Shown piece by piece: positions 31,892 through 41,453 of a stretch of 41,572 nucleotides of DNA (position 1 is its first letter; each line of letters starts with the position of its first letter). Below the pieces are notes generated by a model, which had not been told where the DNA came from, did no database searches, and saw nothing but the letters and a program-made list of their open reading frames with translations. Source of the stretch: Candidatus Calescibacteriota bacterium (GTDB lineage: Bacteria > CAIJMQ01 > JAADFP01); the NCBI GenBank assembly GCA_021162785.1, contig JAGGYA010000013.1, forward strand, positions 1 through 41,572, given 5' to 3'. A program made the position numbers and the translations under genes.

Positions 31892-32650
31892 TCAGTAATT
31901 TACCCGCAGGAGGAAAAGAGCGTGAGCAGGAACTGCTGGTCCAGCAAGGGTTCTATCCTTTCCCTCCAGTATCTCCGCTACGCGGGAAACCAGTATTTTT
32001 CCCCTCCCTACCTCCAAGAGAGTCCCCACAATGTTTCTCACCATCTTCCTTAAAAAAGCATTCGCTTCTATTTCAAAACGAACATTTTTAATGGGGTACT
32101 CACACCAGGGCAGAATAAGTTTCTCCCTTTCTTCTATTTCCAGCTTTAAAATCTTCCTTATCTTTCCCCTCTCCTCACCAGCCTGGGAGAAAGAAGTGAA
32201 ATCATGTTCACCCAAAAGATATCTGGAAGCTTCCTTCATCTTTTCCACATCAAGAGTATAAGGGTAATGGAAAATATAATTCCTTAAAAAAACAGGCACT
32301 TCCTCTGGGGTGACAAGGTAAAGATATGTTCGGGAAATAGCAGAATAACGCGCATGGAATCCCTCATCCACCTCTTCCACTTCAATTATCCTTACTTCGG
32401 ATGGAAGTAAGGAATTAAGAGCCTTCTTAATATTTACAGGGAGAAGTTTTGAAGGGGCTACAAAATGAGCGGTTTGAGCAAGTGCATGAGCGCCCCTATC
32501 AATTCTTCCCTGTCCCACCAGTTTCACAGGTGTCCCATAAATTTTTTCAAGACATTCCTCTATCACGCCCTGGACAGTATATTTATCTTTCTGCTTCTGC
32601 CATCCGTAAAAAGATGTCCCGTCATACTCCAGTGTGAGTTTGTATTTCAT
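31892..32650 (-). CDS. truA: tRNA pseudouridine(38-40) synthase TruA
   Basis: A 252-aa TruA that isomerises uridines 38-40 in tRNA anticodon stems. LTLEYDGTSFYGWQKQ opens it. The catalytic Asp51 lies in GRIDRGAHALAQ, which departs from the usual GRTDAGVHA at two positions around the Asp. VRIIEVEEVDEGFHARYSA and NAFLRKMVRNIVGTLLEVGRG are standard blocks. Its ATG overlaps the stop of the small membrane gene upstream (4 nt). Confidence 0.95.
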   Translation of the reverse strand: MKYKLTLEYDGTSFYGWQKQKDKYTVQGVIEECLEKIYGTPVKLVGQGRIDRGAHALAQTAHFVAPSKLLPVNIKKALNSLLPSEVRIIEVEEVDEGFHARYSAISRTYLYLVTPEEVPVFLRNYIFHYPYTLDVEKMKEASRYLLGEHDFTSFSQAGEERGKIRKILKLEIEEREKLILPWCEYPIKNVRFEIEANAFLRKMVRNIVGTLLEVGRGKILVSRVAEILEGKDRTLAGPAVPAHALFLLRVNY

Positions 32651-32889
32651 CCTTTCTTCTTCCTCTGGGGAAAAAGATGTATCAACTGCAAGAGAATAGA
32701 GATAACTAAAAGCAGAAGGATAGAAATCAGGAGGAGTATTTGAAGAGCTTCAAGTTTATAGGAAGAAGTGAATACATTAAGAAATCCTTTTGAAGTTAAA
32801 ATCTTCAATCCATAAATCGCCTTCCCCATAAAGAAAAGAACAAGAAGGGAAAGAATAAGGAGGAGGAAAATTACCACCTGTCTCATCAC
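32647..32889 (-). CDS. Small two-helix membrane protein
   Basis: An 80-aa protein with two hydrophobic segments (about residues 4-22 and 47-69), a loop between them, and a basic C-terminus PQRKKKG. No family recognised. Coupling to truA through an ATGA overlap and divergent orientation to the MarR gene support it as a real gene. Confidence 0.6.
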   Translation of the reverse strand: MMRQVVIFLLLILSLLVLFFMGKAIYGLKILTSKGFLNVFTSSYKLEALQILLLISILLLLVISILLQLIHLFPQRKKKG

Positions 32890-32910: not shown

Positions 32911-32940
32911 TTGACAAAGAGAGTGCTAAAAATTTAAAAT
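32911..32940 (+). promoter_or_regulatory. Promoter of first MarR operon
   Basis: TTGACA (32911-32916) followed by TAAAAT (32935-32940) with an 18-bp spacer, or TTAAAA with 17. The MarR-type palindrome starts 4 bp downstream, at the expected transcription start, so bound repressor would block initiation. Confidence 0.55.
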
Positions 32941-32944
32941 ATTG

Positions 32945-32967
32945 TATAATTAAAATATTTGATAATA
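32945..32967. promoter_or_regulatory. Imperfect MarR-type operator before marR1
   Basis: A 23-bp element starting TATAATTAAAA and ending ATTTGATAATA. It matches the perfect palindrome before the second MarR gene at all but three positions. The ATG of marR1 is 14 nt further on. Shared symmetry and position suggest autorepression. Confidence 0.55.
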
Positions 32968-32981
32968 AAGGATTTTTACAA

Positions 32982-33410
32982 ATGGATGACCTTAAGAAAT
33001 CTGCTGAAAAGTTGGATGGGATTGTCCTTTCAATCCAGAGGAAAATTAGAGCAAGACTGCATAACGAACTTTCTCAGGGAATAATTACCATCCCTCAATT
33101 CCATGTCCTCACCTATCTTCTCGACCAGGGAGAAGCCATCATGGTGGAACTTGCAAGATTCCTCCAGGTAAGCGCCTCTGCTATCACCAGCATTGTAGAC
33201 AATCTGGTGAAAATGGGTATGGTGGAGAGACATTTTTCTCCGGAAGATCGGAGAATAGTCCTTGTTTCCCTTACCAGAAAGGGGAAGGAGATTATCACCA
33301 GGATTCAGCGAGAATTCAGAGAACTCCTGGAAAATATCCTGGAAAAATTCACCCCAAAGGAAAGGGAAAAATTTCTCCAATTAAGTGAGAAAATGGAAAG
33401 GCTGTTATGA
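32982..33410 (+). CDS. MarR-family transcriptional regulator (copy 1)
   Basis: A 142-aa winged-helix regulator. The DNA-binding core is FHVLTYLLDQGEAIMVELAR, then LQVSASAITSIVDNLVKMGMVERH (recognition helix) and SPEDRRIVLVSLTRKGKE (wing). N- and C-terminal helices form the dimer interface. It is a close paralog of the regulator at 35163, sharing SIQRKIRARLHNELS-type and KFTPKEREK segments. It overlaps tolC by 4 nt, so it controls an efflux operon and probably itself. Confidence 0.92.
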   Translation: MDDLKKSAEKLDGIVLSIQRKIRARLHNELSQGIITIPQFHVLTYLLDQGEAIMVELARFLQVSASAITSIVDNLVKMGMVERHFSPEDRRIVLVSLTRKGKEIITRIQREFRELLENILEKFTPKEREKFLQLSEKMERLL

Positions 33411-34744
33411 AATCAAAAACACTGTTTTTCCTGCTTGTTACTTTTCCAGTTTTCCTCCTCGCCCAGCCTTTGACTCTTAAGGAAAGCATTTCCATAGCCT
33501 TAAAAAACAATCCCTCCTTAAAGGTAGCAAAAGAGAAAATTAAAGAGGCTGAAGCTGAAAAGAAAAAAAGTATAAGTTATTTTCTCCCCCATCTCTACTC
33601 CTCCTCTTCTTACACACGCCTTGATGAAAAGAAAAAGATGGAAATGAGTCTGCCCCCCATCCCTGGATTTCCCCCTCTTCCAGAAACATCCGTAACTCTT
33701 ACAGATGAAGAGATTTACGACTACAACCTCACTATTACTCAACCCATTTTCACTGGAGGAAGACTTACTGCACTATACAGAATGAATAACTTTAATTTTA
33801 AATGTTCCCTCTTCCAGCAGGAAAAAGTTAAAAATGACCTCATATTTGAGGTTAAAAAAGCCTATTACGAGGTCCTTACCGCAGAAAAACTGAAAAAGGT
33901 GGGTGAAGAAACTTTAAAGCAAACCCAAGCTCATCTAAAAGTGGTGGAAAACTTCTATCGGGAAGGTATGGTGCCGGAAGTTGAGGTTACCAGAGCAAGA
34001 GTAGCAGTGAGTAAAGCAAGAGAATTATTGATCAATACTGAAAATTCTCTCAAACTTGCTCAGGCCTATTTCAACAGTGTCCTTCATCGAGACATGGATG
34101 AAGAAGTCATACTGGAAGATATTCTTGAGTGTGAGGAAGCAGAGGTAGAGCTGGAAAAATGCATAAAGGAAGCATTCCTTCATCGACCAGAGTTAAAGGA
34201 ACTTGAGGAAAGAATAAAAATGGGTGAGGAAGGTATAAAAATAGCTCGTTCTGACTTCTTTCCTCAAGTATCCCTTCTCTATTCCTGGGATAGGAAAAGA
34301 GGCGAGGAAATTCCCATTGATGAATGGCAGGATTCCTGGATGGCGGTGATTTCCGTAACCCTCAATATCTGGGACTGGGGTGCAACTTGGAATGAAGTAA
34401 AGAAAGCTAAGGCACAGGTAGAACAATTGAAACAAACTCTCCAGCTTCTCAAGAAAAGAGTGGAACTGGAGGTGAGACAGGCCTATTTTAACCTCATCTC
34501 TTCAAAGGAAAGAATAAAGGTGAGTGAGGAAAGGGTAAAAGAAGCGGAGAAAAACTTCCATGACACAAGTTTAAGGTTCCAGGAGGGTATGGCCACAAAC
34601 ACTGATGTCCTGGATGCCCAGACCATGCTTACCCGAGCAAAAAGCGATTACTACCGCTCACTTTACAACTACAGAATTGCTCTTGCTCGCCTTGAGAAAG
34701 CCATGGGAAGAGAAATTTCAGATTTGAAAAGAGAGGAAAAATGA
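33407..34744 (+). CDS. TolC-family outer-membrane efflux channel
   Basis: A 445-aa OEP-type channel subunit. A signal peptide (SKTLFFLLVTFPVFLLA) precedes QPLTLKESISIALKNNPSL, the usual family start. The two long helical repeats are seen in KVAKEKIKEAEAEKKK and VEQLKQTLQLLKKRVELEVR, and the end has TNTDVLDAQTMLTRAKSDYY and RLEKAMGREI. It forms the outer-membrane exit duct for tripartite pumps. The next gene start (ATG 34741) overlaps its stop but is dead, so the adaptor and pump must come from elsewhere, likely from 35714 onward. Confidence 0.93.
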   Translation: MKSKTLFFLLVTFPVFLLAQPLTLKESISIALKNNPSLKVAKEKIKEAEAEKKKSISYFLPHLYSSSSYTRLDEKKKMEMSLPPIPGFPPLPETSVTLTDEEIYDYNLTITQPIFTGGRLTALYRMNNFNFKCSLFQQEKVKNDLIFEVKKAYYEVLTAEKLKKVGEETLKQTQAHLKVVENFYREGMVPEVEVTRARVAVSKARELLINTENSLKLAQAYFNSVLHRDMDEEVILEDILECEEAEVELEKCIKEAFLHRPELKELEERIKMGEEGIKIARSDFFPQVSLLYSWDRKRGEEIPIDEWQDSWMAVISVTLNIWDWGATWNEVKKAKAQVEQLKQTLQLLKKRVELEVRQAYFNLISSKERIKVSEERVKEAEKNFHDTSLRFQEGMATNTDVLDAQTMLTRAKSDYYRSLYNYRIALARLEKAMGREISDLKREEK

Positions 34745-34844
34745 AAAAACCCCTTCTCTGACCCTATCCCTTCTGGAATATGTGATCAACCGTAAACTCC
34801 AAGAGTGGAAAAAGGATTTAACCAACTTTGGCAGTTCCCACTAA
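34741..34844 (+). pseudogene. Remnant of adaptor start, possibly fused to a pump end
   Basis: ATG 34741 overlaps the tolC stop and reads MKKPLL then TGA, resembling the first codons of the adaptor at 35714 (MRKPIF). In another frame, 34761-34844 reads SLTLSLLEYVINRKLQEWKK, which is reminiscent of RND pump C-termini. This fits deletion of adaptor and pump genes from the first operon. The start match is short, and the pump-end reading is speculative. The rest of the 34845-35102 gap holds no gene I can support. Confidence 0.4.
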
Positions 34845-35102
34845 AAATCCTCAAAATTAATTTCCGAAAAAACGAGGAACTGGAGGAGAAAGAGAGACAA
34901 TCAGAGAAATGGATAGGCTAAGTGTGGTGAAACTAAGGAGGGATAAAGGAGGAAATGCGAGCCTTTTCCAGAACTCAAAATAGGGTTTTTCCTAAAGCCT
35001 TCCCTGTAATGAGACCTCTCCCCCTTAATTTCCAATCCCTTTATTCATGCCCTTTTCAGAAATCAGGGTGTCAAAGTTGAGTTTAACCCTTACTTTCTCG
35101 AT

Positions 35103-35130
35103 TTGACTTTTCTTTAAGTTTCTATATAAT
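35103..35130 (+). promoter_or_regulatory. Promoter of second MarR operon
   Basis: TTGACT (35103-35108), 16-bp spacer, TATAAT (35125-35130). The -10 is the left edge of the palindromic operator, so repressor and RNA polymerase would compete. A Shine-Dalgarno AAAGGAG follows about 10 nt before the ATG at 35163. Confidence 0.65.
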
Positions 35131-35147
35131 TAAATTATTTAATTATA
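35125..35147. promoter_or_regulatory. Perfect 11-1-11 palindromic operator before marR2
   Basis: The left arm TATAATTAAAT is exactly inverted as ATTTAATTATA around a central T. It covers the -10 box. A near copy stands before the first MarR gene. The sequence is very AT-rich, which raises chance symmetry, but an 11-bp perfect arm repeated before two paralogous regulators is good support. Confidence 0.65.
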
Positions 35148-35162
35148 AAGGAGATGAAATAA

Positions 35163-35588
35163 ATGGGAGTCAAGAAAAATGCTGAGTTACTACACAAGAT
35201 AATCCTTAGCATGCAGAGAAAGATAAGGGCTAAACTTCATAATGAGTTATCCTCTGGAGAGATAAGCATTCCCCAATTTCACATCCTTTCCTATCTTTTA
35301 GAGAAGAAGGAAACCATAATGGTGGATCTCGCCAAATACCTTCAGGTGAGCGCCTCTGCCATCACGGGATTAGTAGACAATCTGGTGAAGATGGGGTTAG
35401 TGGAAAGAAAGTTTTCGCCATTCGATAGAAGGGTTATAATAGCCTCTCTTACAGACAAGGGAAAAAAGGTAGTTACGAGAATCAAACAGCAATTCCGTAA
35501 TTTCTTAGAGGAGATTTTGGAAAAATTTACCCCGGAGGAACGGAAAAAACTTCTGGAACTGAGCGATAAGATGGAGAAACTCCTATGA
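35163..35588 (+). CDS. MarR-family transcriptional regulator (copy 2)
   Basis: A 141-aa winged-helix regulator, closely similar to copy 1 along its whole length: MQRKIRAKLHNELSSGEISIPQFHIL, LQVSASAITGLVDNLVKMGLVERK, SPFDRRVIIASLTDKGKK and KFTPEERKKLLELSDKMEKLL. It has a good Shine-Dalgarno. Its stop overlaps an ATG (35585) that begins a tolC remnant, the same coupling as between copy 1 and tolC. It probably represses the adaptor-pump genes downstream; ligand unknown. Confidence 0.92.
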   Translation: MGVKKNAELLHKIILSMQRKIRAKLHNELSSGEISIPQFHILSYLLEKKETIMVDLAKYLQVSASAITGLVDNLVKMGLVERKFSPFDRRVIIASLTDKGKKVVTRIKQQFRNFLEEILEKFTPEERKKLLELSDKMEKLL

Positions 35589-35712
35589 GGAAAAATCCCT
35601 TCCTTGGATGGGCATGGAAGGAAGTGAAGCGTCGGAGATGGGAAAAGGAGAGGCTTTATGTGATTTTCAGATGGCAAAAGTGGAATTGGAGAAGGAAATG
35701 GAGGTAAAGTGA
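35585..35712 (+). pseudogene. Remnant of a tolC gene (start plus C-terminal tail)
   Basis: ATG 35585 overlaps the marR2 stop as tolC does after marR1 and reads MRKNPFLG, like a signal-peptide start. From about 35656, in another frame, the text LCDFQMAKVELEKEMEVK runs to the TGA at 35710. It aligns with the intact TolC end LYNYRIALARLEKAMG (shared L, A, LEK and M, with conservative changes between). So a large internal deletion removed nearly all of tolC. A 40-codon Trp/Arg-rich reading from 35585 exists but looks like an out-of-frame artefact. Confidence 0.7.
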
Positions 35713-35713
35713 G

Positions 35714-36811
35714 ATGAGAAAACCGATTTTTTTAGCATTTCTTTTAGTTCTTTTCCCATCCTTAATGTTCGGCTTTGGATTTAGAAGAGAAAGAAGAGAA
35801 ATTATGGAGAAAGAAGTAAAGGTGCCTGTGAAGGTGGAGAAAGTAAAAAGAGGAGAAATTAAAAAGACCATTGATACATATGGAAATATTCTTCCTTATA
35901 AAAGAATCATAATTTATTCAAAGGTTCCGGGGGTTTTAGAGAGACTTTACTTTGATGAAGGAGATAGGGTTAAGGAAGGGGAACTTCTTGCAGAGATTGA
36001 GCATGAAGAACTTGAATTGAGGATAAAAAGCCTTAAAGCATCACTGAAAATGGCTGAGATAGAACTGGAGAGGATTAAAAAGGACTTTAAAAGGATTTCC
36101 TCCCTTTATAAAGAAAAAGCTGTATCTTCTCAACAGTATGACGATATAAAAGCAGGATATGAAACAGCAAAAGCAAGGGTGGAAAGCATTAAAGCAAATC
36201 TTTCTCTCGCAGAGAAGCAATTAAAAGATTCTTACATAACTGCTCCTTTCTCAGGAATAATTGAGAAGAAATTTGTTGATGAAGGAGAAATGATTACAGG
36301 TTCAAGTATGATGAAAAGTTCCCCTATTTATAGTCTCATAAAGGTTGATAAGGTAAAGATAATAGGAGAAGTAGCAGAGAATGATTTTCCATCTTTAAAA
36401 AAGGGTATGAAGGTTCTTATAAAAGTAGATGCATATCCAGAAAAATTATTTGAAGGTAGAGTTACAGATATTTCCCCTTCAATAGACCCATTATCCAGAA
36501 CAGGTAAGGTAAAGGTAGAGATTGATAATCCTCAATATAAATTAAAACCTGGTATGTTTGCAAGGATGAAAATAATAGTAAAGGAGAGAAAAAATACATT
36601 AGTTATTAATGAGAAAGCTATTTTTAAAGAGAACTCAAAGTTCTTTGTCTGGGTAGTAAAAAATGGAAAGGTCAGAAAAAGGTATGTTGAAAAAGGGATA
36701 GAGGAAAGAAGAAAAGTTGAAATCTTAAAGGGACTGGAAGAAGGAGAAGAGGTGGTTATAGAAGGAGGAATTGGTCTTAAGGAAGGAATGGAAGTTGAGG
36801 TAAGAAAATGA
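35714..36811 (+). CDS. RND efflux periplasmic adaptor subunit (MFP/HlyD family)
   Basis: A 365-aa membrane-fusion protein. A signal sequence (PIFLAFLLVLFPSLMFGF) precedes the lipoyl/barrel-sandwich halves (IIIYSKVPGVLERLYFDEGDRVKEGELLAEI and DSYITAPFSGIIEKKFVDEGEMI), which flank a coiled-coil hairpin (about residues 95-175). A beta-barrel follows (VKIIGEVAENDFPSLKKGMKV) and a membrane-proximal domain ends it. It bridges the inner-membrane pump to TolC. Its stop overlaps the pump start (ATGA). From here on the DNA looks richer in A/T and in ATA and GGA codons than the genes before 34745. Confidence 0.93.
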   Translation: MRKPIFLAFLLVLFPSLMFGFGFRRERREIMEKEVKVPVKVEKVKRGEIKKTIDTYGNILPYKRIIIYSKVPGVLERLYFDEGDRVKEGELLAEIEHEELELRIKSLKASLKMAEIELERIKKDFKRISSLYKEKAVSSQQYDDIKAGYETAKARVESIKANLSLAEKQLKDSYITAPFSGIIEKKFVDEGEMITGSSMMKSSPIYSLIKVDKVKIIGEVAENDFPSLKKGMKVLIKVDAYPEKLFEGRVTDISPSIDPLSRTGKVKVEIDNPQYKLKPGMFARMKIIVKERKNTLVINEKAIFKENSKFFVWVVKNGKVRKRYVEKGIEERRKVEILKGLEEGEEVVIEGGIGLKEGMEVEVRK

Positions 36812-39800
36812 ATATACCGGAAATTTCAGTTAAGAGAAAAGTTACAACTTTAATGATTGTTTTAATGCTTTGTATTTTGGGTATTCTTTCCTTCTTTAAT
36901 TTAGGTTTGGATATGATGCCTGATCTGGAATATCCTGTTGTTTCAATTGTAACGACTTACGAGGGAGTCTCTTCTGAAGAGATAGAATCAAGGATTACTA
37001 AATTGATTGAAGAATCCATAGGACTTGTAAAACATGTTAAAAAAGTATCCTCTTTTTCAATGGAAGGTATATCAGTTGTAATGGTTGAATTCCAGTGGGG
37101 AACAAAACTTGATTTTGCTGCCCAGGAGGTGAGGGATAGGGTCTCATTAATTGAAGATTATCTTCCAGATGATGCGGATAAACCAATTGTTATTAAATAT
37201 AATCCTTCAGATATGCCTATTCTTCTTTATGCTGTAACAGGATTTGGGGAAGACACTTTAAAATTGAGAACATACCTTGATGACGAAATAAAGCCAAGAT
37301 TGGAAGGAATAGATGGTGTGGCTCAGGTTATGCTTATGGGAGGGAAGAAAAGGGAGATAAATATATTTGTTGATGGTGAGAAATTAAAGGGATATAAGCT
37401 TTCTCTACTTCAGATTGTAAATGCTTTAAGAATGGAAAATATAAATATCTCAGGAGGACATATAAAGAAAGGATATAAGGAATATCTTTTAAGAACTTTA
37501 GGTGAGTATAAGAGTTTAGAGCCAATTAAAAACACAATAGTCGGAATTTATCAAGGTAAACCAGTTTATGTAAAGGATATTGCAGAAGTTAAGGATACAT
37601 TTAAAGAAGTAAGAGGTTATGCAAGAGTTGATGGGAAGGACTGCGTAATACTTGGAATAATGAAACAATCAGGAGCAAATGTAGTAAAGGTATCAGATAG
37701 GGTAAAGAAAAAACTTTCATCTCTAAAAGAAATAATACCTCCCCATGTTAAATTCTATAAATTAATGGATTTTGGTGATGTAGCAAAAAGAGTTGTAAGA
37801 ATGACAACCGAAAATGTCTTACAAGGTGGAATTATCACTGTAATTTTACTCTTCCTTTTCCTAAGGAGTTTTACCCCAACCCTTGTTGTCGGTTTATCCA
37901 TTCCTTTTTCCCTTCTTGTTGCTTTTATTGGAATATATTCAGCAGGATATACCTTGAATGTGGTGACCATGGCGGGAATGGCTCTTGGTGTGGGTATGCT
38001 TGTATCCAATGCCATAATAGTTATTGAGAATATATTCCGTTATCTTGAAGAAGGGAAACCACCTGATATATCTGCATCAGGTGGAACAACAGAGGTTATG
38101 GGAGCAATTTTAGCATCAACTTTGACAACCATAATAGTTTTCTTACCTACAATATTTGTTACAGGAATTACAGGAAGGTTAATAAGACCGCTTGCTTTAA
38201 CTGTGACTGTTTCCTTAATTGCTTCCTTCATTGCTGCAATTACTTTAGTTCCAATGATTTCCTCAGTTTTATTTAAAGGTAAAGGGGAAAAATTAAAAAT
38301 AGCAGAGGAAAAAGGATTTGGGAAAATAAAAAATTTTTACAAAAAGACTCTAACATTTGCTTTAAATCATAAATTATTATTCATCCTCCCTTCTTTTATT
38401 CTTTTTGGATTAAGCCTGTGGGGATTAAAATTTATTGGTAAAGAATTTATACCTTCAATAGATACACCAATGCAGATTTTCAAATTAAGTATGCCAGTAG
38501 GAACAACATTGGAAGATACAGAAAAGTATGTTGAATACATAGAAAGATGTTTCAAAGAACCTGAGGTAATCCATATTGCTTCTTTTGGTGGAATGAGTGA
38601 GGCATCAAAACTTGATGTTGCCTTTGGTATGGGAAGTTCAGAAGTTTATGAAGCACAGGTATTCGGAAGATTTAAGTGGAAAGAAGATAGGAAAAGGAGC
38701 ATATTCCAGATAAGAGATGCTATAAGGAAGAAAATTGCTCCTCTGGAAGGTATTCATTATGAATTTACTGATATGAGCAAAATGATGACGACTGCAGGTG
38801 GGGAAACTCAAGATATTGTTATAAAAATATTTGGGAAAGAATTACCGGTTTTAAAAAGAATAGCGGAGGAAGTTAAGGAAAGGATAAAGAATATTCATGG
38901 ACTTAAGGATTTGGATATAAGTTTGAAGACTGGAAAGCCTGAGATTAAAGTAATTATTGATAGAGAGAAAGCATCAAGAATTGGTTTAACAAGTGCTATT
39001 ATTGGTTCTACAGTAAAGACAGCATTTCTTGGCGAGGTTTCAACAAAATATAGAATTGGTGGAGATGAATATGATATGAGGGTAAGGTTCAAAGAGCCTT
39101 ATAGAAGAGATATTAAAGATTTAGAGAATCTTACCATAACTACAATGGGGGGTGTTCAAGTTCCACTTAAAGAGGTTGCAAAGATAGAAATTGGGAAAGG
39201 CCCTGTAAAAATAGAAAGGGAGAATAAAAAGAGGAAGGTCTCAGTTACAGGGAATGTTTCAGGAAGGGATTTAGGGTCTGTTGTGGAAGAAATAAAAGAA
39301 AAAATAAAGGATATAAAACTTCCCTTTGGATATTACATAGAATTTGGTGGTCAATACGAAAAGATGAAGGAGGCATTTGGTAGTTTATTCTTTGCATTTA
39401 TATTCGCAATTATCTTAGTTTATATGGTAATGGCATCAGATTTTGAATCCTTAATTCATCCATTAATAGTTATGTTCACATTGCCACTGGGGATAATAGG
39501 TGTTGTAGCAGGGCTTTTAATTTCTCATTCCACATTAAATATTGGTTCATTTCTCGGAATGATACTTATGGCTGGAGTTGTTGTAAACAATGGAATAGTA
39601 ATGATAGATTATGTGAATTTACTCAGGAGAGAAAGGAAAAAAGATGTGAGAGAATCTTTAATTGAAGGATGCACAACAAAACTTAGAGCAATAATACTTA
39701 CCACTCTAACAACAGTTTTTGGAATGTTTCCAATGGCAATATCTCATACTTCAGGTTCAGAGTTTAGAGCACCTATGGCTATATCTGTAATTGGAGGAGT

Positions 39801-39885
39801 TTTAATCTCTGCAGTCTTTACCCTTTACCTGATCCCGGTTATCTATGAATTAGCAGAAAAAGTGGGAAGAAGAAGAAAAATATAA
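36808..39885 (+). CDS. RND-family efflux pump, inner-membrane subunit
   Basis: A 1025-aa AcrB/MdtB-like transporter with two repeats of one helix, a periplasmic loop and five further helices. The N-terminus (IPEISVKRKVTTLMIVLMLC, DMMPDLEYPVVSIVTTYEGVSSEEIE) and loops (AAQEVRDRV, DGVAQVMLMGGKKREINIFVD) are typical. In TM4 the conserved Asp of AcrB (D407) is replaced: GMLVSNAIIVIENI has Ser400-Asn401. In TM10 the AcrB Lys940 position is Asn927 (GVVVNNGIVMID). Proton relay must therefore differ or be impaired. Works with the adaptor just upstream; exported substrate unknown. Confidence 0.94.
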   Translation: MNIPEISVKRKVTTLMIVLMLCILGILSFFNLGLDMMPDLEYPVVSIVTTYEGVSSEEIESRITKLIEESIGLVKHVKKVSSFSMEGISVVMVEFQWGTKLDFAAQEVRDRVSLIEDYLPDDADKPIVIKYNPSDMPILLYAVTGFGEDTLKLRTYLDDEIKPRLEGIDGVAQVMLMGGKKREINIFVDGEKLKGYKLSLLQIVNALRMENINISGGHIKKGYKEYLLRTLGEYKSLEPIKNTIVGIYQGKPVYVKDIAEVKDTFKEVRGYARVDGKDCVILGIMKQSGANVVKVSDRVKKKLSSLKEIIPPHVKFYKLMDFGDVAKRVVRMTTENVLQGGIITVILLFLFLRSFTPTLVVGLSIPFSLLVAFIGIYSAGYTLNVVTMAGMALGVGMLVSNAIIVIENIFRYLEEGKPPDISASGGTTEVMGAILASTLTTIIVFLPTIFVTGITGRLIRPLALTVTVSLIASFIAAITLVPMISSVLFKGKGEKLKIAEEKGFGKIKNFYKKTLTFALNHKLLFILPSFILFGLSLWGLKFIGKEFIPSIDTPMQIFKLSMPVGTTLEDTEKYVEYIERCFKEPEVIHIASFGGMSEASKLDVAFGMGSSEVYEAQVFGRFKWKEDRKRSIFQIRDAIRKKIAPLEGIHYEFTDMSKMMTTAGGETQDIVIKIFGKELPVLKRIAEEVKERIKNIHGLKDLDISLKTGKPEIKVIIDREKASRIGLTSAIIGSTVKTAFLGEVSTKYRIGGDEYDMRVRFKEPYRRDIKDLENLTITTMGGVQVPLKEVAKIEIGKGPVKIERENKKRKVSVTGNVSGRDLGSVVEEIKEKIKDIKLPFGYYIEFGGQYEKMKEAFGSLFFAFIFAIILVYMVMASDFESLIHPLIVMFTLPLGIIGVVAGLLISHSTLNIGSFLGMILMAGVVVNNGIVMIDYVNLLRRERKKDVRESLIEGCTTKLRAIILTTLTTVFGMFPMAISHTSGSEFRAPMAISVIGGVLISAVFTLYLIPVIYELAEKVGRRRKI

Positions 39886-39930
39886 AGTAGGCACTTGAAA
39901 AGGCTCTCAATAGTTTAGAGGGGTGAAAGA

Positions 39931-40096
39931 ATGGAGTTTAAAGCAGGTTGGATATTAGTTTGTCTTGGAGTGAGCAGTTAGTCTGGAATTGAGGGCATTG
40001 GTAACAACTAAGAAGAAGGTAAAAGAAATAGTGGATGAGTTATCTAAAGAAGGCAGAATTGGGCAAGAAGAAGGTAAGCATGTTAGGAGATATTAA
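39931..40096 (+). pseudogene. Phasin-like small gene with a frameshift
   Basis: ATG 39931 has a strong GAGGGGTG Shine-Dalgarno and reads MEFKAGWILVCLGVSS then TAG. In the next frame, 39992-40096 reads ALVTTKKKVKEIVDELSKEG and ends GQEEGKHVRRY, close to the pattern TKEKVEELVDELVKKGEISKEEGK of phasin-related proteins that often precede ABC1-kinase genes. A one-base shift between the parts would restore it. It overlaps the start of the kinase gene by 17 nt. Confidence 0.55.
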
Positions 40097-41453
40097 GCAA
40101 AAGATTCATAACATTCAAAGGCTAAATCAAATCTTGTGGGTTTTAGTCAAATACGGCTTTGGCTACATTGTTGACCGTTTGCATATTGGAGAGAAGCTCA
40201 TCCGGAGAAAACTGGTCAGGCGCGGTCCCCTAAGGAGGTTAGATATATTTGATATGCCAGCCTCTGTCAGGGTTCGCAAGGTTCTGGAAGAATTAGGGCC
40301 AACATTTATTAAGTTAGGACAGATATTAAGCACACGGCCTGATTTAGTGCCACTGGAATTTTGTGAAGAGTTTAAGAAACTCCAAGATAAAGCCCCTGTT
40401 TTTGAGTATGAAAAAGCGAAGAAAATAGTGGAAGAAGAACTCAAATGTCCTATTGATGAATTATTTGATGAATTTTCTGTAAAACCTATAGCTGCTGCTT
40501 CCTTATCCCAGGTTCATTCGGGTAAGTTAAAAACAGGAGAAAAAGTTATCGTAAAGGTTCAAAGACCAAATGTAGAAAGGATAATTAAACAAGATATCGA
40601 AATATTATACACATTAGCCAAATTAGCCGAAAAATATATTGAGGAAAGTAAACTTTATAATCCAGTGGAAATAGTAGATGAGTTTAGAAAGGCAATTTTA
40701 AAAGAGATTGATTTCAATACAGAAGCAAACAATATCGATAGGTTCCGCAGGAATTTTAAAGGTGATGATACAGTATATATCCCCAAAGTATTCCATGATC
40801 TATCAACCAAAAGAATCCTAATTATAGAGAAAATTGAAGGGATAAAGGTAACAGATGTAGAAAAGATAGAGAAATCAGGACTGGATAAGAAAAAAATAGC
40901 CATAAATGGAGCTAATGCAGTATTGAAACAGATTTTTGTAGATGGTTTCTTCCATGCAGACCCTCATCCTGGGAATATTTTTGTCTTGGATAATAATAGG
41001 ATTGCCTTTTTGGATTTTGGTATGGTAGGCCGCATTGATGAGGAGACAAAATCACAGTTTGCTAATATCTTGCAAGCAATTATTGAGCGAGATGCATCCA
41101 CCATAATAGAATCTTTTATTGCTTTGGGGATGGTTGAGGAAGATATGGATATTAAAAAACTTGAACTGGATGTTGCAGACCTTATAGACCGCTACTATGA
41201 GGTACCTTTAAAAGAGTTAAGAATGGAACGGCTCGTAGGAGAGATAATTAATGTGGTTTCGGAAAACAGGATAAAAGTTCCTCCTAATTTATACCTTTTA
41301 GCAAAAACACTGATAACAGTTGAAAGTATAGGAAGAGAGCTCGACCCTGATTTCAATATGATAACCAAAATAAGACCTTTTGTAAAGAAACTGTTTTGGC
41401 ATAAATATAAGGTCAAGTCCCATTTTTCCTGTAAAAAAGAGAGAGCCTTATAA
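40080..41453 (+). CDS. ABC1/AarF/UbiB-family atypical kinase-like protein
   Basis: About 457 aa. The family-specific PTFIKLGQILSTRPDLVP (KxGQ motif) comes first, then the Ala-rich nucleotide loop KPIAAASLSQVHSGKLKTGEKVIVKVQRP, EIDFNTEANNIDRFRRNF, and the catalytic FFHADPHPGNIFV with metal-binding IAFLDFGMVGRID. UbiB/COQ8 relatives support quinone or isoprenoid-lipid metabolism. I place the start at ATG 40080 (MLGDIKQKIHNIQRL), where relatives begin; ATG 40035 would add 15 residues lying over the phasin-like remnant. Unlike many family members, no C-terminal membrane hairpin is evident. Confidence 0.9.
   Translation: MLGDIKQKIHNIQRLNQILWVLVKYGFGYIVDRLHIGEKLIRRKLVRRGPLRRLDIFDMPASVRVRKVLEELGPTFIKLGQILSTRPDLVPLEFCEEFKKLQDKAPVFEYEKAKKIVEEELKCPIDELFDEFSVKPIAAASLSQVHSGKLKTGEKVIVKVQRPNVERIIKQDIEILYTLAKLAEKYIEESKLYNPVEIVDEFRKAILKEIDFNTEANNIDRFRRNFKGDDTVYIPKVFHDLSTKRILIIEKIEGIKVTDVEKIEKSGLDKKKIAINGANAVLKQIFVDGFFHADPHPGNIFVLDNNRIAFLDFGMVGRIDEETKSQFANILQAIIERDASTIIESFIALGMVEEDMDIKKLELDVADLIDRYYEVPLKELRMERLVGEIINVVSENRIKVPPNLYLLAKTLITVESIGRELDPDFNMITKIRPFVKKLFWHKYKVKSHFSCKKERAL

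Follow-up and report, generated by a model that had tools for sequence, protein, structure and literature searches.

A candidate operator shared by duplicated MarR-type repressors of an RND efflux locus in Candidatus Calescibacteriota

To describe the locus we refer to the window, the whole stretch of DNA analysed, which comprises 41,572 nucleotides of contig JAGGYA010000013.1 (forward strand). It carries two MarR-family regulator genes among the genes of an RND efflux pump, each regulator gene preceded by a promoter-like match and a candidate operator:

32911..32940, plus strand: promoter-like TTGACA-18-TAAAAT before marR1, from a consensus scan (alternative -10 TATAAT at 32945-32950)
32945..32970, plus strand: candidate operator block 1, with the 23-mer at 32945-32967 and the downstream dyad core TTTGATAATAAAG at 32958-32970
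32982..33410, plus strand: marR1, 142 aa, MarR family
33407..34744, plus strand: tolC-like gene for an outer membrane efflux protein, overlapping marR1 by 4 nt
35103..35130, plus strand: promoter-like TTGACT-16-TATAAT before marR2, from a consensus scan
35125..35150, plus strand: candidate operator block 2, with the palindrome at 35125-35147 and the downstream dyad core TTTAATTATAAAG at 35138-35150
35163..35588, plus strand: marR2, 141 aa, MarR family, product 68% identical to that of marR1
35714..36811, plus strand: RND periplasmic adaptor (MFP), TIGR01730 above cut-off
36808..39885, plus strand: RND permease (ACR_tran), PF00873 above cut-off

The genes of an RND tripartite pump are present, with the outer membrane protein (PF02321), the adaptor (PF16576) and the permease (PF00873) all above their cut-offs. 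Both regulators belong to the MarR family (PF01047, 59.8 and 50.7 bits for a cut-off of 24.6) and gave profile matches to MarR-family PDB chains; they scored far below the cut-offs of the NCBIfam MarR-type equivalog models listed (MarR, SlyA, AdcR, HpaR and others). The 68% identity of MarR1 and MarR2 extends over 139 residues, and a search of their own genome with MarR2 as the query returned MarR1 and MarR2 as the only matches at E <= 0.001. Neither translation contains a cysteine. The segment SASAITSI / SASAITGL, which we take to be the recognition helix from general knowledge of the MarR fold, differs between MarR1 and MarR2 at two positions. On the minus strand, an ORF for an 80-aa hydrophobic protein without a Pfam match (32647-32889) has its start some 55 nt away from operator block 1, so that this block occupies a short intergenic region between divergent genes. 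Furthermore, an ATG overlapping the marR2 stop codon opens a frame of about 40 codons (35585-35713) for which no significant relative was found; this overlap resembles the start of tolC after marR1.

A previous sequence-only reading of this DNA had proposed a perfect 11-1-11 palindrome at 35125-35147 and a near-identical site at 32945-32967. Both descriptions were confirmed: the first site is TATAATTAAATTATTTAATTATA, a perfect 11-1-11 palindrome overlapping the -10 of TTGACT-16-TATAAT (35103-35130), and the second is TATAATTAAAATATTTGATAATA, which differs from it at three positions. The further statement that the site before marR1 lies just past the -10 holds if the promoter is TTGACA-18-TAAAAT, but if the -10 is TATAAT at 32945-32950 the hexamer falls within the site. 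That TATAAT aligns with the TATAMT opening the conserved block, described below, in the other six promoters. Both promoter-like matches score 11/12 and are the top two of the scan of the region, which yielded 8 sites in total versus 5.4 (sd 2.1) in shuffles; since this total is not above the shuffles, the promoter calls are weak by themselves. The earlier reading held that cross-regulation by both repressors would keep the divided pump genes in step; since the plus strand between tolC and marR2 showed no terminator-like site, read-through is another way in which these genes could be coupled.

Allowing for up to three mismatches, the 23-mer was found at two places in the window, compared with 0.01 on average over 100 shuffles. 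The same two places, with none for the control, were returned from the genome of the window (G000; 949,252 bases in 27 contigs, 64.07% complete, with about one third absent from the assembly that may contain further sites). The motif is therefore unique in this assembly to the two marR promoters rather than a general feature of AT-rich sequence, and the genome scan that had been suggested as a check leaves the shared-operator reading standing. Among 20,000 simulated upstream regions of local composition, a perfect palindrome with 11-nt arms and a loop of 0-4 nt appeared in 0.16% of those of 200 nt and, in a set of the same size, in 0.21% of those of 80 nt, while two simulated 80-nt upstreams matched at 20 or more of 23 nt in 1 of 4,000 cases.

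Seven genomes were compared for the phylum, including that of the window (G000-G006), of which G003 and G004 are close, so that few of the comparisons are independent. An orthologous marR was identified in six of the seven, G005 being without one. The genes marR-tolC-MFP-RND are contiguous, on the same strand and with a single marR, in G002, G003, G004 and G006; in G001 the operon genes are found on two contigs, C136 (marR and the start of tolC) and C110 (the rest of tolC, adaptor and permease). In the window, by contrast, another promoter-marR stands between tolC and the adaptor gene (marR-tolC / marR-MFP-RND). Further MarR matches exist in G001, G002 and G006 but are distant (28-30% identity), so that none of the five relatives shows a second close marR copy. 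Since the four relatives with one marR are undivided, the division would have arisen when the second promoter-marR came between tolC and the MFP gene. The orthologous-operon permeases of G003 (L081:11058-14120) and G001 (L082:1787-4953) are disrupted, the former by an in-frame TAA and the latter by a split into two reading frames separated by about 44 unmatched residues, which could reflect either decay or assembly error. From the adaptor gene of the window on (35700-41000), G+C drops from about 0.41 to 0.34 and the G-over-C skew rises. The window permease is nearest (48-49%) to the permease of a second G003 pump, which adjoins a gene for a TetR-like regulator (below all NCBIfam cut-offs); its identity to the orthologous-operon permeases is 33-40%. 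The window adaptor is nearest to those of G001 and G002 (45-46%), hence a separate history of the window pump core is only partly indicated.

The promoters of marR in the five relatives contain one 26-nt block, TATAMTTA-N5-CTTAATTATTAAG, with less conserved flanks. Together with the two copies of the window, the block is present in 7/7 promoters compared, i.e. a conserved dyad in the promoter of the repressor itself. Aligned on TATAMT, the seven promoters give TATAMTTA-N5-(C/T)TTAATTAT(T/A)AAG, from which the marR1 copy departs by two mismatches. Pairwise identity amounts to 0.65-0.96 in the block and to 0.17-0.70 in the flank from -40 to -10 (ungapped), and the block exceeds the flank in 21/21 promoter pairs. 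The best matches of the G001 26-mer in the six other 120-nt upstreams summed to 128/156, versus at most 95 in any of 60 simulations. Exact CTTAATTATTAAG was found once each in G001, G002, G003, G004 and G006, always in the marR promoter, and was absent from G000 and G005; its reversed control gave 3 matches in the same seven genomes, thus a few chance matches were to be expected and none was seen. The degenerate core TTWRATWATWAAG matched G000 at six places (controls 0), two of them the marR promoters; the other four, one of which (L084) is a few codons into a gene, were read as inside ORFs and were discarded as candidates for further regulon members. A looser 26-nt pattern allowing for up to three mismatches gave no sign of further targets in the seven genomes, with 7 off-promoter places, all at three mismatches, versus 6 for the control. 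What had been described as operators shared by both marR genes is a footprint extending across the phylum, distinct from general AT-rich sequence.

Two overlapping dyads can be drawn within the block, the one originally proposed (centres 35136/32956) and another 8 nt downstream (35144/32964). Summed over the seven sites, the downstream dyad scores 38/42 and the original one 30/42 when six pairs are counted, and 56/77 and 57/77, respectively, when eleven are; the mean per pair at other centres is 0.37. In either dyad, four pairs are invariant across the seven sites; those of the downstream dyad all lie clear of the -10, whereas three of those of the original dyad touch it. The downstream core is perfect in the relatives, reaching 14-1-14 in G004 as read from the sequence, and imperfect in both window copies, each with 4/6 pairs symmetric; the changes common to the two window copies improve the original dyad. 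The register of the proposed 23-bp palindrome may not be that of the operator: over eleven pairs the two centres are level, but the best-conserved symmetry outside the -10 lies 8 nt downstream. We take the 26-nt block as the putative operator, its register leaning to the downstream centre.

The origin of the second copy was approached by phylogeny and by a search for remnants. In a tree of seven rows, MarR1 groups with MarR2 at weak support (69/67), and rival clades are not rejected (p-AU 0.23 and 0.22); a tree with four distant outgroups was discarded for its long branches and open forks in favour of the seven-row tree. Remnants were sought as a decayed tolC after marR2 (35586-35713) and as pump remnants after tolC (34745-35100). 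At the protein level, frame segments of at least 12 residues were compared with seven proteins and retained if at most 15/500 shuffles were as good, which left a single match, a weak one to MFP in the spacer after tolC (6/500). At the DNA level, 11/12 comparisons had at least 21/100 shuffles as good, the tolC spacer against the G002 operon having 2/100. Given so many comparisons, we do not claim remnants of a longer duplicated unit, and neither search revealed in these two intervals a remnant that would prove the route of the duplication.

We consider it likely that each site is a private autoregulatory operator of MarR type, copied along with its repressor when marR was duplicated within the operon. 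Judging from the position of the block and the known behaviour of the family, a MarR dimer bound to it would cover the region of the -10, the start point and the ribosome site. Until released by an effector, it would thereby keep both its own gene and the following efflux genes repressed. The ancestral operon of the phylum would have had the order promoter/operator-marR-tolC-MFP-RND and one repressor; in the lineage of the window, promoter/operator and marR would have been duplicated, one copy now standing between tolC and the MFP gene. This would have left the locus with two repressors whose operators are almost identical, and the pump with a promoter inside the operon. Since the operators and the recognition helices are nearly unchanged, both repressors probably bind both sites, and cross-regulation by both is plausible. 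The lack of cysteine in MarR1 and MarR2 makes thiol sensing of the YodB/CatR or OhrR type unlikely, and a small-molecule ligand is our default guess.

Among the alternatives, the one that survives best, although we regard it as unlikely, is that the likeness of the operators is due to descent alone and that the repressors have drifted, so that each now controls its own promoter and cross-regulation is not functional. Of the two copies, marR1 evolves faster (branch of 0.37 versus 0.16 for marR2 in the seven-row tree), and block 1 is less like the blocks of the five relatives (identity 0.65-0.73) than block 2 (0.77-0.85), which leaves room for a changed specificity; the two differences in the recognition-helix segment also favour this reading. 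Against this, the two blocks are identical at 23/26 positions whereas the third positions of same-residue codons in marR1 and marR2 agree at only 40/94 and the fourfold sites at 13/34, as expected under one specificity; the comparison makes it more likely that the block was held by selection than that its likeness is due to recent copying. A more elaborate scheme, to which we give rather little credence, would give the operon two switches in place of one through the duplication of repressor and operator; in it the paralogs compete for both operators and two effectors or thresholds are combined. The outer-membrane channel and the pump core would then each stand behind a copy of the same operator, and the register would have shifted in this lineage from the downstream dyad of the relatives to a dyad centred on the -10, perfect before marR2.

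It is still less probable that the block is conserved merely as a core promoter and ribosome site read by no repressor. Its left end is indeed the -10 hexamer TATAMT in all seven promoters, and in the window, G001 and G002 its right end reaches the ribosome site, but the invariant bases include some that are not part of the -10 (TA at positions 6-7 and TTnATnATnAAG), and the right half persists where the ribosome site, by our reading, is more than 10 nt farther on. The distance from the block to the start codon is 25-34 nt in G003, G004 and G006, compared with 11-12 nt in the other four; CTTAATTATTAAG, unchanged at the longer distance, is thus not kept as a ribosome site. Moreover, the exact core occurs nowhere else in the five relatives and its degenerate form was seen at no other G000 promoter. 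Finally, that the palindromes are chance products of AT-rich intergenic DNA has next to no probability in view of their uniqueness in the genome assembly, the simulations and the phylum-wide footprint, even though A+T makes up 80% of the 80 nt upstream of marR2 and the four pairs of the 35125-35147 palindrome beyond the conserved arms have a joint chance of about 1% at local composition, so that the final perfection of this palindrome needs little or no selection.

We thus regard as real a candidate operator that is private to this locus in the genomes compared and common to the duplicated MarR repressors of an RND pump, and the arrangement fits an ordinary self-regulating pump operon with a copied repressor. 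The finding leaves existing knowledge of MarR control unchanged. It provides, for an uncultured candidate phylum, a candidate MarR operator that is sequence-specific and testable, and it adds a natural example of repressor and operator apparently being duplicated together within one efflux operon. A literature search that included the operator core as a string did not return the operator. In Pseudomonas aeruginosa, MexR is described as binding its own promoter and that of its pump, mexAB-oprM (PMC6018408). The locus in the window differs from this system in having a duplicated repressor gene ahead of the pump genes, on the same strand as these, and in an operator sequence found only in this phylum in the searches made. 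A precedent for two MarR-type paralogs with a common target gene is offered by Bacillus subtilis, in which catE is controlled by both of the paralogous MarR/DUF24 repressors YodB and CatR (PMC10458429). The DUF24 subfamily senses through conserved cysteines (PMC6943732), whereas the MarR proteins of the window are free of cysteine, and the target of YodB/CatR is not an RND pump. In general, operators of the MarR family are given as 16-20 bp in length with a palindrome that is not always perfect (PMC6018408, PMC10458429), and the block of the window is like them in its size, its imperfect dyad and its position in the promoter, while its sequence differs.
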